6,669 bases of DNA from Pseudomonadota bacterium (lineage in GTDB: Bacteria; Pseudomonadota; Alphaproteobacteria; Rhizobiales; Methylopilaceae): contig JAEWEX010000493.1 in assembly GCA_023389135.1 (NCBI GenBank), forward strand, positions 1 through 6,669, given 5' to 3'. Below the pieces are notes generated by a model that saw only the letters and a program-made list of their open reading frames with translations, was not told the DNA's origin and did no database searches. A program made the translations under genes and the position numbers. How positions within the stretch are numbered: position 1 is the stretch's first letter; each line of letters begins with the position of its first letter. Shown here piece by piece: positions 1 to 6,669 of the stretch.

Positions 1-247
1 CGTAAAGCCCCGCGATCGAAGGCAGTCCGCGCTCGGAATTGCGCGGAAAGACGGTCACGAGCTTGACTCCCATCAGGCCGCCAGGCCGCCAGGCCGGCAT
101 GATCAGCAGGGTTTCGCCCGCCGGCCCGACATGATGATGCTGGCGCACCGGGGTCTCGCAGCCCGAGGCGAACATGTCGCGCAGCGCGCCGATCAGTTCC
201 GGCCAGGGCAAGCTGGTGCGAACAAGGTCGGCATCGAAAGTCAGCAT
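1..247 (-). CDS. Ornithine cyclodeaminase/mu-crystallin family protein, N-terminal part (runs off left edge)
   Basis: Reading the minus strand from the ATG at 247..245 gives 82 codons of open frame with no stop. The family (ornithine cyclodeaminase, ketimine reductases, delta1-pyrroline/piperideine-2-carboxylate reductases, alanine dehydrogenase of the Ala type) is NAD(P)-dependent and normally about 310-330 residues, so only the first quarter is here. Visible family marks are Arg35 in PVRQHHHV, the LLIMPAW block (residues 47-53), GVKLVTVFPRN with Lys62 (60-70), and GLPSIAGLY (74-82). In characterised members the Arg and Lys contact the substrate carboxylate and keto/imino region. The Rossmann domain lies outside the window, so the exact reaction cannot be assigned. 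This ATG is the only usable start: upstream in frame there is no ATG/GTG/TTG before a stop at 298..296. The Shine-Dalgarno is weak (GAGTGA, 257..252). The gene is divergent from the regulator and shares a control region with it. An 8-bp tandem repeat lies inside the gene at 75-97. Confidence 0.85.
   Translation of the reverse strand, partial: MLTFDADLVRTSLPWPELIGALRDMFASGCETPVRQHHHVGPAGETLLIMPAWRPGGLMGVKLVTVFPRNSERGLPSIAGLY
75..97. repeat. 8-bp tandem repeat (AGGCCGCC, about 2.9 copies) inside the cyclodeaminase-family gene
   Basis: The unit AGGCCGCC occurs at 75-82 and 83-90, and is followed by AGGCCGG at 91-97. The unit length is not a multiple of three, so gain or loss of one copy would shift the minus-strand reading frame. 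In the present copy number the frame is intact and the protein keeps family spacing between MPAW and GVKLV. Confidence 0.8.
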
Positions 248-343: not shown

Positions 344-967
344 GTGAACATTTCCGAACCGCGGAGCCCACGCGGCGGGCGCGAGATCGATCTCGGCGCG
401 CGCGTCCGCGCGCTCCGCAACCGGGCTGGCTTGACGAGCAAGGAGGTGGCGGCACGCTCGGGCCTGTCGCCCTCTTCCATCTCCAAGATCGAGAACAACC
501 TGCTCTCCCCGACCTACGAGAACATCATCAAGCTGGCGCGCGGACTGGACGTCGACATCGCCGAGCTGTTTTCCGATCCAGCGCGATCGACGCCGTTCGG
601 ACGGCGCTCCATCACCCGCAAAGGCGGGGGAAAATTCTTCCGGACTGCGCAATACGACTACGAAATGCTGTGCACGGATCTCGTCGCAAAGAAAATCCTG
701 CCGCTCAAGGCGCGGATCAAGGCGCGCAGCATCCGCGATTTCGGGGGGCTCATCCGCCATGACGGCGAGGAGTTGCTGCTGGTGCTGTCCGGCGCGGTGG
801 AACTCCACACGGAATTCTACGAGCCGGTGATGCTCCAGGCCGGCGACTGCGCCTATTTCGACAGCACCATGGGCCATGTCTGCGTCGCCCACGGCCTCGA
901 GGACGCCGAGGTGTTCTGGGTCTGCACCAACATCGACATGGCGCTGGCCGTGCCTGCGCCGGCCTGA
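344..967 (+). CDS. XRE-family transcriptional regulator with C-terminal cupin domain
   Basis: This 207-residue protein has the standard two-part layout of small-molecule-responsive XRE-cupin regulators. The N-terminal helix-turn-helix spans about residues 15-76. It includes IDLGARVRALRNRAGLTSKE, the recognition-helix region SPSSISKIENN (42-52), SPTYENIIKLARGL, and an ending DIAELF. A linker (about 77-130) follows. The cupin_2 barrel covers about 134-200, marked by HDGEELLLVLSGAVELH, LQAGDCAYFDSTMGH and the closing strand near EVFWVCTN. The usual HxH metal motif of cupin enzymes is absent, so the barrel probably senses a ligand rather than catalysing a reaction. The GTG start is chosen for its strong Shine-Dalgarno (GGAGG, 6-nt spacing) and because it leaves a normal divergent promoter region. 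The gene sits between two near-identical palindromes at 273-284 and 994-1005, consistent with local control of the divergent gene, of itself, and of the downstream transport operon. Whether it represses or activates cannot be told. Confidence 0.9.
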   Translation: MNISEPRSPRGGREIDLGARVRALRNRAGLTSKEVAARSGLSPSSISKIENNLLSPTYENIIKLARGLDVDIAELFSDPARSTPFGRRSITRKGGGKFFRTAQYDYEMLCTDLVAKKILPLKARIKARSIRDFGGLIRHDGEELLLVLSGAVELHTEFYEPVMLQAGDCAYFDSTMGHVCVAHGLEDAEVFWVCTNIDMALAVPAPA

Positions 968-1079: not shown

Positions 1080-1964
1080 ATGAACGATCAGGACATGAGC
1101 CGCCGGACACTGTTCGGCATCGGCACCGCGGGCGGCGCGGCCCTGCTGACCGCAGGCGTCGCCGCAGCGCCCGCAGCCGCGCAGACCGCCCCCGAGGCCG
1201 CGGGCGGCACGCTTCAGGAAATCCGCGGCCGCGGGGAGTTGCGCATCGGCGTCGCGCCGGGCGAGCCCTGGTTCTTCAAGGACCAGCGTTCGGGGGAATG
1301 GCACGGCATCGGCTGGGGCGTCGGCGTCGCGCTGGCCGAACAGCTCGGCGTCAAGGCGGCGCCGGTGGAAACCACCTGGGGCAACGCGGTCGCCGGCCTC
1401 CAGGCAGGGCAGTTCGACGTCATGTTCGTGCTCGACGCCACGCCGCAACGGGCGCTGGCCGTCGACTTCCCGGTGCAGCCGATGTTCTACTACGCACAGG
1501 GCATCCTGGTCCGCGACGACCTCGAGGTCTCCGCCTGGGAGGAACTGAACAAGCCCGACATCCGCGTCGGCGTGATCCTGGGCACGGCGCCCGACCGCGA
1601 CGTCACCGCGCGGCTGCCCAATGCGCAGATCGAGCGCTTCCCCAATGGCGACGAAACGGCGGCCGCCTTCCAGGCGGGGCGCGTCGACGCGATCTCGCTG
1701 TTCCATCCGGCGCTGGTGATGCTTCGCAACCGCGTGCGCCGCGGTAAGGTGCTGCTGCCGACCCCGATCAAGCAGTCGACCACCAGCGCAGGCGTGCGCC
1801 GCACCGAGGACAAGTCCTGGCGCGACTGGCTCGGCCTCGCCCTCGCCTACATGTACACGTCCGGCGAGACGCAGCGGATCTACGAGGAGTTCCTCACCTT
1901 CCGCGGCATCGAGCCGGCCGACGCCCCGCCGGTGATGCGCGAGATGTGGGCGGGCGGCAACTAG
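1080..1964 (+). CDS. Family-3 ABC transporter solute-binding protein with Tat signal
   Basis: This 294-residue periplasmic binding protein (SBP_bac_3 fold) feeds the two permeases downstream. The N-terminus has a twin-arginine signal: SRRTLFG at 7-13, a hydrophobic stretch to about residue 31, and probable cleavage near PAAAQ (31-35). The mature part starts GTLQEIRGRGELRIGVAPGE (43-62), then lobe 2 and hinge regions including TPQRALAVDF (121-130) and LGTAPDRD (168-174). Arg124 matches the arginine that holds the ligand carboxylate in amino-acid binders such as HisJ. At the position of the alpha-amino-binding aspartate, GRVDAISLFHP (200-210) has Phe208 and His209 instead. The usual DG..GF..DL signature near residue 75 is also altered to WHGIGWGVGVALAEQ. 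I therefore expect a carboxylate ligand that need not be a normal alpha-amino acid. ATG 1080 is preferred over in-frame ATG 1038 because AGAGGA (1067-1072) lies 7 nt upstream and the Tat motif then sits at the N-terminus. A GC hairpin covers the stop codon. Confidence 0.9.
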   Translation: MNDQDMSRRTLFGIGTAGGAALLTAGVAAAPAAAQTAPEAAGGTLQEIRGRGELRIGVAPGEPWFFKDQRSGEWHGIGWGVGVALAEQLGVKAAPVETTWGNAVAGLQAGQFDVMFVLDATPQRALAVDFPVQPMFYYAQGILVRDDLEVSAWEELNKPDIRVGVILGTAPDRDVTARLPNAQIERFPNGDETAAAFQAGRVDAISLFHPALVMLRNRVRRGKVLLPTPIKQSTTSAGVRRTEDKSWRDWLGLALAYMYTSGETQRIYEEFLTFRGIEPADAPPVMREMWAGGN

Positions 1965-1992: not shown

Positions 1993-2661
1993 ATGAACTA
2001 CGACTGGGACTTCTCGCCGGTCTGGCGCAATGCCGGCTTCCTGCTGGAGGGGCTCGCCAACACGGTGTGGCTCTCGGCCTGCGCGATCTCGCTCGGCCTC
2101 CTCATCGGGCTCGGGCTCGCCATGCTCAGGCTGTCGCCAGTGCGGCTCGTCTCCGGGCTCGCCATGGCGTTCATCGAGTTCTACCGCAACACGCCGCCGC
2201 TGGTTCATTTCTTCTGGTACTTCTACGGCCTGCCCATCGCCATCGGCGTCAGCATGAGCCCGTTCCTGGCGGCGCTGCTGGCGCTGTCGATCCAGTCCGG
2301 AGCGTTCTTCGCCGAGGCGTTCCGCGGCGGCATCGTCTCCATCGAGCGCGGCCAGTGGGAAGCCGGCCGGGCGCTCGGCATGACGCAGGGCCGGCTGATG
2401 CGCCGCATCATCCTGCCGCAGGCGGTCCGCCGCACCATTCCGCCGCTGATGGAGCGCTCCTTCGAGCTCGTGAAGACCACCGCGCTCGCGGCGACGCTGG
2501 CCTATGGCGAACTGCTCTACAACGCCATGGTGGTGACCTCGCAGAGCTTTCGCCCGCTTGAGACCTATACGGCGGTGGCCGTACTGTTCTTCTCGCTCCT
2601 GTTCTGCGCCAGCCTCGCCATGCGCGCGGTCGAGGCGCGGCTCGCCCGCGGGCAGCGGTAG
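1993..2661 (+). CDS. Polar amino acid-type ABC transporter permease 1 (HisM/GlnP family)
   Basis: This 222-residue inner-membrane protein is of the His/Glu/Gln/Arg/opine permease family, at typical length. Hydrophobic segments are visible at about residues 15-45 (FLLEGLANTVWLSACAISLG onward), 53-62, 70-80, 85-105 and 185-208. The cytoplasmic EAA loop begins at Glu123 (EAGRALGMTQGRLMRRIILP) and ends near TIPPL. This is the coupling helix that docks on the ATPase. The gene starts 28 bp after the binding-protein stop and lacks a clear Shine-Dalgarno (only a GCGGCG-like stretch), so its translation may be weaker than that of the binding protein or depend on read-through past the hairpin. It is followed by a close paralogue 3 bp downstream, implying a heterodimeric membrane channel. 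Confidence 0.92.
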   Translation: MNYDWDFSPVWRNAGFLLEGLANTVWLSACAISLGLLIGLGLAMLRLSPVRLVSGLAMAFIEFYRNTPPLVHFFWYFYGLPIAIGVSMSPFLAALLALSIQSGAFFAEAFRGGIVSIERGQWEAGRALGMTQGRLMRRIILPQAVRRTIPPLMERSFELVKTTALAATLAYGELLYNAMVVTSQSFRPLETYTAVAVLFFSLLFCASLAMRAVEARLARGQR

Positions 2662-2664
2662 GCC

Positions 2665-3329
2665 ATGGCCTACGATTTCGCCTTCGAGGTGGTGTTTCAG
2701 GACATCGACCTGCTGCTGCGCGGCGTCGGGCTGACGGTGGCGCTGTGGGCGCTGGCATTCGCCTTCGCGCTGGTGGCCGGCCTGTTCCTCGGCATCGCCC
2801 GGGGCTCACCGCGGCGCTGGCTCAACTGGCCGGCGACGGCCTATATCGAGGTGTTCCGCAACACGCCGGTGCTGGTCCAGCTGGTCTGGTTCTATTACGC
2901 GTTCCCGGTGCTGACCGGCATCCAGATGTCGCCTTTCACCGCGGCGGCGCTGGGCCTCAGCCTCAACACCTCGGCCTATTGCGCCGAGATCTACCGTGGC
3001 GGGCTGCAGTCCATCCTGCGCGGCCAGTGGGAGGCGGGCACCGCGCTCGGCATGACCTATGGCCGGGTCATGCGCCGCATCGTGCTGCCGCAAGCGGTGC
3101 GCCGGATGATCCCGGCCTTCACCAACCGTGCAGTGGAACTGGCGAAGATGACGTCGATCGCCTCGGTGCTGGCCGTCCACGAGCTGATGTACGAGGCGCG
3201 GCTGCTCAGCACCCAGAGCTACCTGCCGCTGGAGACCTTCACCGTCGTCGCGGTCATCTACTTCCTGCTGATCTATCCCGGAACGCTCGCAGCCTATGCG
3301 CTCGAGCGCCGCTACGCCGCGAGGGCCTG

Positions 3330-3330
<1 letters not shown>
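2665..3330 (+). CDS. Polar amino acid-type ABC transporter permease 2 (HisQ/HisM family)
   Basis: This 221-residue permease is paralogous to the preceding one and almost equal in length. Its EAA loop begins at the same residue number, Glu123 (EAGTALGMTYGRVMRRIVLP followed by QAVRRMIPAF). Membrane segments lie at about residues 15-45, 53-60, 68-80, 90-105 and 190-212. FRNTPVLVQLVWFYY (residues 62-76) is the family signature ahead of the third segment. The start is 3 bp after the permease 1 stop, and the stop overlaps the ATPase start by one base (TGATG), so the three membrane-complex genes are translationally coupled. Together with permease 1 it should form the translocation pathway for the solute delivered by the periplasmic binding protein. 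Confidence 0.93.
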
Positions 3331-4115
<785 letters not shown>

Positions 4116-4132: not shown

Positions 4133-5047
4133 ATGGCTGCGACTGAAATCAAGGGCGCGCAGACACCGGCCGATGATCCCCGCAACGAGGATGTGCTCAT
4201 CTGGCTGAATGGCCGGCTCGTGAAGCGCGCCGAGGCGCTTGTCTCCATATTCGACGCAGGCTTCGGCCTCGGCGACGGCGTGTGGGAAGGCATCCGGCTG
4301 GTGGAGGGCCGGCTGGTGCTGGTCGACGAGCACCTGCGGCGCCTCTACGACGGCGCCCGCACTATCGCCATCGACATCGGAATGACGTCGGCCGAGATGC
4401 GTGGCGCGCTGGAGGACACGGTCGCCGCCAACGGCATGTCCGACGGCGTCCACATCCGGCTGATGGTGACGCGTGGCGAGAAGCGGACCGTGCATCAGGA
4501 CCCGCGCAACGCGCTGGGACGGGCGACGGTGGCCATCGTCGCCGAGCACAAAGTGCCGGATCCCGAGGTGAAGCGCCGCGGCCTGACGCTCGCCACCTCC
4601 ACCTTCCGCTGCAGCGGACCTGACGTCTTCGACCTGAGGCTCAACTCCCATAGCCGGCTCAACCTGATCCAAGCGCTGCTCCAGGCGATTTCGGCCGGCG
4701 CCCACGAGGCGCTGATGCTCGATCCCGCGGGCTTCGTGTCGAGCTGCAACTCCACCAACTTCTTCATCGTGCGCGACGGCCGCGTGCTCACCTCGACCGG
4801 TCGCTTCTGCTTCAAGGGCATCACGCGCGCGAAGACGATCCAGCTCTGCGCAGACAATGGGGTGAGCTGTACCGAGACCGACGTCACGCTGGCCGAGGCG
4901 TACTCGGCAGATGAGGCGTTCGTCACCGGCACCTTCGGTGGGCTGACCCCGGTGTCGTACATCGACGGCCGCCAGATCGGCAGCGGGGCGCGTCCGGTCA
5001 CCGGACGGCTGTCGGCGCTCTACGACACGATGGTCCGGCGGGGATGA
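4133..5047 (+). CDS. Class IV (PLP fold-type IV) aminotransferase-like protein lacking the catalytic lysine
   Basis: This 304-residue protein matches branched-chain and D-amino-acid transaminases along its length: VLIWLNGRLV (21-30), FDAGFGLGDGVWEGIR (40-55), EHLRRLY (66-72), GFVSSCNSTNFFIVRDG (200-216), FKGITRAKTI (227-236) and DEAFVTGTFGGLTPV (260-274). Phosphate-cup elements (Arg70, GITR at 229-232, TGT at 265-267) are kept. Active members read K-S-L-N-Y-L-N-N-I-L-A at the Schiff-base lysine; here the ungapped equivalent is N-S-H-S-R-L-N-L-I-Q-A (171-181), so the lysine column holds Asn171. No lysine occurs between 147 and 228. The glutamate that pairs with the pyridine nitrogen (VTEGSSSNVF in D-amino-acid transaminase) is Ser204. 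It may therefore not be a transaminase; non-Schiff-base chemistry, a scaffold or a regulatory role are alternatives. The fold family is secure and the function is not. The stop overlaps the next start (ATGA), implying coupled synthesis with the MmgE/PrpD protein. Confidence 0.88.
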   Translation: MAATEIKGAQTPADDPRNEDVLIWLNGRLVKRAEALVSIFDAGFGLGDGVWEGIRLVEGRLVLVDEHLRRLYDGARTIAIDIGMTSAEMRGALEDTVAANGMSDGVHIRLMVTRGEKRTVHQDPRNALGRATVAIVAEHKVPDPEVKRRGLTLATSTFRCSGPDVFDLRLNSHSRLNLIQALLQAISAGAHEALMLDPAGFVSSCNSTNFFIVRDGRVLTSTGRFCFKGITRAKTIQLCADNGVSCTETDVTLAEAYSADEAFVTGTFGGLTPVSYIDGRQIGSGARPVTGRLSALYDTMVRRG

Positions 5048-6453
5048 CCGAGGCTGCGCCGGACAGCCTGACGCTGCGGATCGCGCGGTTCGCCGCCAGG
5101 CTGACGCTGGAGGACATCCCGGATGAAGTCCGCGAGAAGGCGAAATTGCACATCCTGGATACGGTCGGCTGCGGCATCGCCGGCGCATCCTCCGATCTCG
5201 CGCGCCGACTGATCGACTTCGTCGCCACGGAACACGGCGCCGGGACGATCCCGGTCCTGGGGTCCGCACGAAGCTTCGGCCCAGCGGCCGCCGCCTTCGC
5301 CAATGCCGCAGCCATGAACGCGCTCGACTTCGACGACGGTTTCGAGATCGACGGAAAGGGCATGGGCCATCCGGGTGCGACCATCGTCGCAGCCGCGCTG
5401 TCGGCCTGCCGGCCGCGGACGACGGGAGGCGACCTGCTGCGGGGCGTGATTGCCGGCTATGAGGTAAACAACCGGCTGATCCTGGCCATGCAGCCGAGCC
5501 ATGAGCGGTTTCGCGAGGTCTATGGCGTATGCCAGCACCAGACCATCGGGGCCGCCGTCGCCCACGGAGTCACGCTGGGTCTCGATTCCGCACGGGTGGA
5601 GAACGCCATCGGCTTTGCGGCAACCCTTGCCAGCGTTCCCAGCCTGAGGAAATACAACTGGCAGTCGCGGCCGCTGGTGGACTTCAAGGATTTCAACGCG
5701 CCGGCGGCAGAGGCCGGCGTGCGGGCGGTGCAGCTCGATGCGCTGGGCCTCGCCGGCGCGCGCGACGTGCTGGACGGAGCTTCGGGCTACTGGCGGATGG
5801 CGGGTTCGGACAGGTTCGACCCGGCTGCATTGACCGACGGGCTGGGCGCCGACTGGCTGATCCTGCGCAGCAGCATCAAGCCCTATCCAGCCTGTCGCTG
5901 GATGCATGCGGCGATGGAGGCGTTCGAGACGCTGACGCGCCGCCATGCGCTGCAGCCGCGAGAGATCGAGCGCGTCGTCGTCCACACCTCGGCGGGCCTG
6001 GCGCGAGACTTCATGGACCATGCCCCCGCCACCATGGTCGATGCCCAGTTCAGCCTGCCCTTCTGTCTCGCGGCGCTAGCGCTCGGCGTATCGCCCGCGT
6101 CGCGCTGGTATGAGAACCGGACGCTGCGCCGCAATGACATGCTCGCCTTCGCCCGGAAGGTCGCGGCCGAGATCGACGACGAGGTGGACGCCGCCATGAG
6201 CGGCCCGCGGCGTCGCCCCGCCGGCCGCGTCAGCATCCTCGCACGGGGCGAACGCTTCGGGTCCAGCCTGATCGCACATCCCAGGGGCGGCTTCGAACGC
6301 CCCGTATCGTCAGCGGAAATCCGTGAGAAGTTCATGGCCAACGCCGCGCCGGTGCTCGGCCAGACCGCGACGCACGGCCTGGTCGCCGCGATCGGACGGC
6401 TGGAACGGACGGCCCGGGCCTCGGCGGTATTCGCGGTCGATCCCAAACCCTGA
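5044..6453 (+). CDS. MmgE/PrpD family protein (dehydratase/decarboxylase/epimerase superfamily)
   Basis: This 469-residue protein is of normal family length. The superfamily includes 2-methylcitrate dehydratase, cis-aconitate decarboxylase and iminodisuccinate epimerase. The all-helical domain carries HILDTVGCGIAGA (36-48), MNALDFDDGFEIDGKGMGHP (91-110), YGVCQHQTIGAAVAHG (160-175) and LVDFKDFNAPAAEAG (211-225). The lid domain carries SSIKPYPACRWMH (276-288). Candidate active-site residues, matched from memory to human cis-aconitate decarboxylase, are Asp95, His109, His165, Lys215 and Lys279. Gly99 stands where that enzyme has Thr97. Substrates of the family are usually polycarboxylates or imino-dicarboxylates, which fits a partner protein from an amino/imino-acid family but does not identify the reaction. 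The start overlaps the preceding stop by four bases (ATGA). It is the last gene of the operon here, with an IS element beginning about 30 bp after its stop. Confidence 0.9.
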   Translation: MTEAAPDSLTLRIARFAARLTLEDIPDEVREKAKLHILDTVGCGIAGASSDLARRLIDFVATEHGAGTIPVLGSARSFGPAAAAFANAAAMNALDFDDGFEIDGKGMGHPGATIVAAALSACRPRTTGGDLLRGVIAGYEVNNRLILAMQPSHERFREVYGVCQHQTIGAAVAHGVTLGLDSARVENAIGFAATLASVPSLRKYNWQSRPLVDFKDFNAPAAEAGVRAVQLDALGLAGARDVLDGASGYWRMAGSDRFDPAALTDGLGADWLILRSSIKPYPACRWMHAAMEAFETLTRRHALQPREIERVVVHTSAGLARDFMDHAPATMVDAQFSLPFCLAALALGVSPASRWYENRTLRRNDMLAFARKVAAEIDDEVDAAMSGPRRRPAGRVSILARGERFGSSLIAHPRGGFERPVSSAEIREKFMANAAPVLGQTATHGLVAAIGRLERTARASAVFAVDPKP

Positions 6454-6536: not shown

Positions 6537-6669
6537 GACGGACGATGCGACCCTCGCGGTTCACGGAAGAACAGATCATCGGGATGCTGAAGGAACAGGA
6601 GGCCGGTGCGAAGACGGCGGATGTCTGCCGCAAGCACGGCATCTCGGCAGCGACCTTCTACAAGTTCAA
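6483..6669 (+). mobile_element. Left end of an IS3-family (IS51/IS407-like) insertion sequence, truncated by window edge
   Basis: The stretch from about TGACCTGAG (6483) leads into a short 5' untranslated region and then an orfA typical of IS3-family elements. Many IS3 ends begin with TG, so TGA at 6483 or 6489 is a plausible terminus. The right end and target duplication are outside the window, so the true boundary is uncertain by about 10-30 bp. The element lies beyond the operon's last stop codon and does not break any gene visible here. Confidence 0.6.
6545..6669 (+). CDS. IS3-family transposase OrfA, N-terminal part (runs off right edge)
   Basis: The frame opens at ATG 6545 and reads MRPSRFTEEQIIGMLKEQEA, then GAKTADVCRKHGISAATFYK, to the window edge (41 codons). 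SRFTEEQII, KEQEAGAK and HGISxATFY are the hallmark of the HTH_Tnp_1 domain in OrfA of IS3-family elements, which binds the terminal inverted repeats. OrfA is usually about 85-100 residues and is fused to the DDE-containing OrfB by programmed -1 frameshifting; that part is beyond the window. No clear Shine-Dalgarno other than a GGAGACGGAC stretch (6534-6543) precedes it. Confidence 0.9.
   Translation, partial: MRPSRFTEEQIIGMLKEQEAGAKTADVCRKHGISAATFYKF

Follow-up and report, generated by a model that had tools for sequence, protein, structure and literature searches.

Class IV aminotransferase-like proteins without the Schiff-base lysine: a member encoded beside amino-acid-type transporter genes, its clade and its genomic partners

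The window, by which we mean the whole 6,669-nucleotide stretch of a metagenome contig that was analysed, carries on its forward strand an operon in which a regulator and the components of an amino-acid-type ABC transporter are followed by genes for a class IV aminotransferase-like protein and an MmgE/PrpD protein:

2-247, minus strand: part of a divergently oriented gene for an ornithine cyclodeaminase/mu-crystallin type reductase, cut by the window end; matches below curated cut-offs.
344..967, plus strand: helix-turn-helix and cupin regulator (Pfam HTH_3, Cupin_2), its GTG start chosen by hand.
1080..1964, plus strand: family 3 solute-binding protein (Pfam SBP_bac_3).
1993..2661, plus strand: amino-acid-type ABC permease.
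2665..3330, plus strand: amino-acid-type ABC permease.
3330..4115, plus strand: amino-acid-type ABC transporter ATPase; best NCBIfam matches below cut-offs.
4133..5047, plus strand: class IV aminotransferase-like protein of 304 residues, lysine-less.
5044..6453, plus strand: MmgE/PrpD protein (Pfam MmgE_PrpD_N, MmgE_PrpD_C), in a 4-base overlap (ATGA) with the preceding gene.
6545-6669, plus strand: start of a transposase OrfA-like frame (MRPSRFTEEQIIGMLKEQEAG...), presumably of IS3 type, just downstream of the operon.

The aminotransferase-like protein has the fold-type IV structure and matches Pfam Aminotran_4 with 148.9 bits (cut-off 28.5) over positions 1-221 of the 223 in the profile. Two residues that characterize fold-type IV aminotransferases (5cm0, 5mqz, 1daa, IlvE), the Schiff-base lysine and the glutamate at the pyridine nitrogen, are nevertheless absent. 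In phmmer alignments with the solved branched-chain aminotransferases 5cm0, 5e25 and 5mqz, lysine stands over Asn171 and glutamate over Ser204 within a gap-free region. The positions concerned are:

4643..4645, plus strand: Asn171 (codon AAC), Schiff-base lysine column; Asn in 80 of 80 genome loci, the best 80 of at least 576.
4649..4651, plus strand: His173 of the NSHS motif; present in 54 of 54 Asn-type and 0 of 24 His-type rows of the tree described below.
4655..4657, plus strand: Arg175, four residues after Asn171; corresponds to Lys in the sister group with NSHSK and to Tyr in most of the canonical enzymes sampled.
4742..4744, plus strand: Ser204 (codon AGC), pyridine-nitrogen glutamate column, by alignment to solved transaminases.

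These alignments bear out a preliminary description of the locus in the placing of Asn171 (at 4643-4645) and Ser204 in the two catalytic columns, and in the gap-free match across the catalytic segment, for which it had proposed comparison with fold-type IV structures. Measured against a PLP-dependent class IV transaminase, the protein thus departs in the Schiff-base lysine and in the acidic residue at the pyridine nitrogen, and agrees in the arginine and threonines of the phosphate cup (Arg70, Thr231, Thr267). A covalent lysine counts as a standard feature of transaminases of fold type IV, according to the portion of PMC12429042 available to us. All 18 NCBIfam transaminase and aminodeoxychorismate lyase models listed for the protein fell under their cut-offs, the best scoring 222.5 against 363 (PRK08320.1). 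In the AlphaFold model, residues 170-172 are the sole run of three or more residues with pLDDT under 50.

The replacements are held constant among relatives. Aligned with 33 homologues (34 rows, from 120 listed), the window protein shares Asn171, Arg175 and Ser204 with every one of them. Among the best 80 of at least 576 confirmed genome loci, Asn171, Ser172, His173 and Ser174 are identical throughout; at position 175, 79 loci have Arg and one has Lys, and at position 204, 78 have Ser and two have Thr. In a plasmid collection, where 60 records out of 315 were listed, a gap in identity sets the family apart: the top 20 matches have at least 47% and the next at most 37%. Asn171 is present in all eight of those 20 proteins whose residues were read. 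Compared with its orthologue at locus L001, the window gene shows dN of 0.17 and dS of 0.74, and a simple pairwise count gave dN/dS of 0.20 to 0.44 against five of six orthologues, dS being saturated in the sixth (L083). The gene is under purifying selection. The initial judgement that this is a selected change, not decay, is therefore sustained by the conservation of Asn171 in all of these best 80 loci and by the excess of dS over dN, which together rule out decay or sequencing error.

Lysine-less proteins fall into three types, defined by His171/Glu204, by Asn171/Lys175/Thr204 and by Asn171/Arg175/Ser204, the last being that of the window. The first, with motifs such as HHANLLQ and HSANLIP in Gemmatimonadota, has His in the lysine column and retains Glu204; among the sequences read, His at column 171 occurs only in this Gemmatimonadota sister group. 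A tree of 98 class IV rows (78 lysine-less, 20 canonical, rooted on three of the canonical rows) was built without columns 171, 175 and 204, and places all 78 lysine-less rows on one side of a branch with SH-aLRT support of 100. Within that clade the His type (24 rows) is supported at 100, the Asn/Arg group (32 rows), which includes the window, at 96, and the Asn/Lys group (22 rows) at 66. The tree was made by a quick method with SH-aLRT values only, on rows sampled with an Asn-type protein model, and program warnings mark long branches both between clades and within the outgroup. A single disappearance of the Schiff-base lysine appears to be the simplest reading, short of proof. Column 204 holds only Ser or Thr in all 54 Asn-type rows and Glu in all 24 His-type rows, and Lys175 is found in 22 of the 54 (NSHSK), so that the early impression that some NSHS.LN proteins have a lysine close by proved right.

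The clade is spread over three phyla. A lysine-less member, its residues read, occurs in at least 25 of 299 genomes of Pseudomonadota, 30 of 200 of Gemmatimonadota and 4 of 201 of Chloroflexota, each sample including one centre genome picked for carrying the gene (G001, G006 and G506). These counts are lower bounds, the search model having come from Asn-type proteins and part of the candidates having been scored in many genomes. The weaker matches that were read (seven of eight in Pseudomonadota, both in Chloroflexota and five of about 40 in Gemmatimonadota) had Lys in all cases. That the window protein is a one-off of this metagenome contig is ruled out by the lysine-less members in genomes of three phyla.

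The residues around the vacated lysine position were compared across the 78 lysine-less rows, the 20 canonical rows and 60 class IV loci that served as a second canonical sample; all 60 of these have Lys171 and 57 have Glu204. This second sample was the best Pfam match per genome (30 Pseudomonadota, 30 Chloroflexota), which favours high-scoring canonical enzymes, and it has one gene in common with the first (L207 = L114). As a separate observation, loci L222, L235 and L237 keep the lysine but, as aligned here, show Cys or Gly where the pyridine-nitrogen glutamate would stand. Positions of interest in the window gene are:

4283..4285, plus strand: Trp51, clade-specific pocket residue; 78 of 78 lysine-less rows, 0 of 20 and 0 of 60 canonical.
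4340..4342, plus strand: Arg70, phosphate-cup arginine; 78 of 78 lysine-less, 20 of 20 canonical.
4451..4453, plus strand: His107, clade-specific pocket residue at a position where most of the canonical enzymes sampled have Tyr; 78 of 78 lysine-less rows, 0 of 20 and 0 of 60 canonical.
4481..4483, plus strand: Lys117, in the TRGxK loop; 76 of 78 lysine-less rows, L101 and L113 having Arg instead; 0 of 20 and 1 of 60 canonical.
4748..4750, plus strand: Asn206, two residues after Ser204; 78 of 78 lysine-less rows, 0 of 20 and 0 of 60 canonical.
4823..4825, plus strand: Thr231 of GITR, phosphate cup; 78 of 78 lysine-less, 19 of 20 canonical.
4931..4933, plus strand: Thr267, phosphate cup; 76 of 78 lysine-less, 15 of 20 canonical.

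We assume the phosphate-cup roles of Arg70, Thr231 and Thr267 from branched-chain aminotransferase structures, and likewise the pocket roles, the pointing of the loop toward the partner subunit, and the direction of Tyr at 175 to the phenolic oxygen. The Aminotran_4 score and the retention of the cup agree with the preliminary description, which had held the fold and phosphate-binding elements to be intact. Trp51, His107, Lys117 and Asn206 replace the usual residues of branched-chain and D-amino acid aminotransferases. Because Trp51, His107 and Asn206 are universal in the clade and Lys117 nearly so, each against none of the 20 canonical rows, the pocket is, judging by its residues, rebuilt and not lost.

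The arrival of Lys117 together with the loss of Lys171 also lends itself to the chief competing explanation, that the lysine has moved: Lys117, perhaps that of the partner subunit, or Lys175 in NSHSK would form the Schiff base, and the proteins would be ordinary covalent PLP enzymes. The TRGxK loop presumably reaches the partner's active site, as we take it from branched-chain aminotransferase structures, and the two rows with Arg117 (L101 and L113) are NSHSK rows with Lys175, so that none of the 78 rows lacks a lysine at both 117 and 175. Those same two rows nonetheless argue against an essential aldimine lysine at 117, the window has Arg at 175, and the existence of an engineered lysine mutant of a solved relative suggests that the wild-type protein has no lysine in place. 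We regard a relocated lysine as unlikely.

That relative, PDB 7z79, is an "aminotransferase-like protein" of Variovorax paradoxus and, with its N174K mutant 9j32, is the best match of the window protein by both sequence and fold. Over a stretch of 242 residues it shares 66.5% identity with the window protein and 98.3% with the gene at L021 (V. paradoxus NBRC 15149), which adjoins an amino-acid ABC transporter and represented it in the tree, 7z79 itself not being a row. Numbering in 7z79 is that of the window protein plus 3. In the printed alignment the two share the NSHSRLN motif, the SSCNSTNFF segment and the clade-specific Trp, His, Lys and Asn; the window protein has Asn171, a Ser/Thr at 204, Trp51, His107, Lys117 and Asn206 together, as the 7z79 family does, and belongs to the same clade. 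They differ in organism and in neighbours, the stretch around L021 giving no MmgE/PrpD match. Structural biologists have, then, already met the lysine-less family and put the lysine back. PLP is named in the PDB title of neither 7z79 nor 9j32, and our searches of the open-licence literature found no paper on either entry or on the lysine-less family.

Lysine-free chemistry on a transaminase scaffold has a precedent. The sugar 3-dehydratases ColD and E1 are PMP-dependent and have the catalytic lysine replaced by histidine, and in E1 the His-to-Lys change was made and studied, as described in the part of PMC8987622 available to us. On that evidence they resemble the window protein in carrying a replaced catalytic lysine on a transaminase scaffold, and the E1 change parallels N174K in the V. 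paradoxus relative; they act, however, on nucleotide sugars, and their lysine gave way to His, whereas the window protein, having Asn, lacks the histidine of the ColD/E1 type. The fate of the pyridine-nitrogen residue can be set in a wider frame: Ser or Thr at this position marks the fold-type II enzymes, which favour eliminations, and, by this analogy only, Ser/Thr204 might point away from transamination and toward elimination-like chemistry. ColD and E1 belong to fold type I, another fold than that of the window protein.

Neighbouring genes within 6 kb were surveyed with a set of named partner genes as tblastn queries. The 89 records searched comprised the best 80 of at least 576 loci, eight plasmid regions and the window, some records being shortened by contig ends. 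An ABC solute-binding protein or permease lay near the gene in 47 of the 89 and a Sulfotransfer_5 gene in 17, both in none and neither in 25; GntR/FCD regulators were found in 35 and an XRE-cupin regulator in 6, one of them (L016) weak. The set seen in the window (XRE-cupin regulator, ABC genes, class IV gene, MmgE/PrpD gene) recurs in L001, L002 and L003 and is rearranged on a Paracoccus yeei plasmid. The MmgE/PrpD family includes cis-aconitate decarboxylase and iminodisuccinate epimerase, and the overlapping neighbour belongs to it as a separate protein with its own fold. The preliminary description had entertained a regulatory partnership with this protein; despite the 4-base overlap in the window, MmgE/PrpD genes lie near the class IV gene in only 8 of these 89 records, and MmgE/PrpD is rejected as a fixed partner.

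Several further arrangements were observed among these loci. A third recurrent partner is a ClC-type chloride channel gene, present nearby in 6 of the 89 records (L005, L006, L007, L031, L082 and L085) and within 150 bases in five; this may hint at a chloride or halogen theme, for which six records are too few. In L082, L020 and L031 a ProC-like reductase gene stands among ABC genes, 1.8 to 3.3 kb from the lysine-less gene. On a Pseudomonas savastanoi plasmid typed as mobilizable (L083), the ABC and class IV cluster lies between insertion sequences, and the regulator and channel genes are annotated as unusually short. Among NSHSK genes on Rhodobacterales plasmids, a TAXI gene adjoins in L085 and a TRAP gene in L086, rather than the amino-acid ABC set, and in L084 a branched-chain ABC set and an Asp/Glu racemase gene lie a few kb away.

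The most constant partner of the lysine-less clade as a whole is the Sulfotransfer_5 protein (Pfam PF19798, threshold E up to 1e-20). PF19798 occurs in 21 of the 299 Pseudomonadota genomes, all 21 among the 25 with an Asn-type protein and in 0 of the other 274 (Fisher 1.4e-28, overstated, as related genomes were treated as independent). Fifteen of these 21 pairs adjoin, with 0 to 160 bases between match edges; two are far apart and four are on separate contigs. In Gemmatimonadota it occurs in 7 of 200 genomes, all among the 30 with a lysine-less protein (Fisher 8.9e-7), and by printed positions all seven pairs lie side by side; one of the seven, G006, is the sample centre, picked for carrying the Asn type. 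Combined, 28 of 28 Sulfotransfer_5 genomes also carry a lysine-less protein, and PF19798 was found in 0 of 14 named control genomes. It partners all three lysine-less types. Four Pseudomonadota genomes with an Asn-type protein have no Sulfotransfer_5 match, namely 3 of 7 with the window's Arg/Ser type and 1 of 18 with the Lys/Thr type. We infer that the pairing is probably the older state and that the transporter branch departed from it afterwards. A plant fusion presumably joins a sulfotransferase-like and a class IV domain; no paper on such a fusion was found in the open-licence literature, as far as the available passages go (PMC12506393, PMC11625862). Among ten His-type loci hand-picked from 29 and read with wide flanks, where genes were called roughly from their length and third-position GC content, Sulfotransfer_5 adjoins two, and GHMP-kinase-like and threonine-synthase-like genes, named by Pfam from one representative each, precede five (L165, L166, L167, L168 and L173).

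Such strict co-occurrence is what might be expected of a complex, and could mean that the lysine-less protein is a non-catalytic binding or regulatory protein, whose pocket senses a cofactor or metabolite and which controls or scaffolds Sulfotransfer_5, the ABC transporter or the MmgE/PrpD protein. The window protein lacks the two main catalytic residues, and the partner differs between branches, as this would allow. Against it, the pocket columns are conserved far above the average, new invariant polar residues included (mean entropy in Asn-type rows of 0.13 bits, over a hand-chosen set of 18 active-site columns, against 1.25 bits for the average column), and the window's type, with Sulfotransfer_5 missing from 3 of 7 genomes and with varied neighbours, has no single partner to regulate. 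A purely regulatory role thus seems improbable to us. The same pairing with a sulfotransferase-like protein could instead suggest an enzyme that has dispensed with PLP, its cup, still kept, binding another phosphate- or sulfate-bearing ligand, for example one from the Sulfotransfer_5 partner; in the window protein, substitutions affect the two positions that contact the pyridoxal ring. The retention of Glu204 in all 24 His types and of a hydroxyl in the Asn types suggests, though, that a pyridine ring is still bound, and in none of the 47 records with ABC genes (from the best 80 loci and the nine others), the window among them, does Sulfotransfer_5 lie within 6 kb. We consider a PLP-free enzyme very unlikely.

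The reading that we favour, and hold tentatively, is of a re-tooled fold-type IV enzyme that holds PLP or PMP non-covalently and carries out elimination-like or lyase-like chemistry in place of transamination. In this scheme the cofactor would be held by the phosphate cup with no bond to a lysine, B6 binding being itself part of the proposal; the substrate's amine, or its keto group in the case of PMP, would join the cofactor directly, and acid-base groups might come from His107, His173 and Lys117. In the window's branch the substrate would be an amino-acid-like solute imported by the adjoining ABC transporter, and the product may pass on to the MmgE/PrpD protein. We favour a re-tooled B6 enzyme because the cup is kept, residue 204 is Glu or Ser/Thr only and new invariant polar residues occupy the pocket; because the proteins form one clade of 78 rows (SH-aLRT 100) under purifying selection with conserved active-site columns; and because ABC transport genes lie within 6 kb in 47 of the 89 records from the best 80 loci and nine others. 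The precedent of ColD and E1, in the available part of PMC8987622, makes lysine-free PMP chemistry on a transaminase scaffold conceivable. Counted against this proposal are the PDB titles, which do not name PLP, the low pLDDT at 170-172 and the absence of His173 from the His types. Loss of both lysine and glutamate, moreover, normally abolishes transaminase chemistry and weakens PLP binding. A broader extension, which we think possible but rather doubtful, is that fold type IV has a lysine-free B6 branch of its own, arisen by one loss of the lysine, with a re-tooled pocket and non-covalent PLP or PMP, that worked first with Sulfotransfer_5 in a two-gene pathway and later, in the window's branch, in an operon for amino-acid uptake and breakdown.

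The change in this family is real, selected and clade-wide, and has already been touched by structural genomics; its single clade, its replaced set of pocket residues and its strict pairing with Sulfotransfer_5 are, as far as our searches of the open-licence literature go, apparently undescribed. The source names of lysine-less proteins are branched-chain amino acid aminotransferase and class IV aminotransferase, occasionally aminodeoxychorismate lyase or D-amino acid aminotransferase, and metabolic models resting on such names are likely wrong for these proteins. From its sequence pattern the lysine-less protein is likely an enzyme with a different chemistry rather than the product of a dead gene, and the Sulfotransfer_5 pairing offers a concrete place to seek the reaction. 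A clade with the phosphate cup kept, the lysine lost and new residues fixed in three phyla would offer a natural experiment on the role of that lysine.
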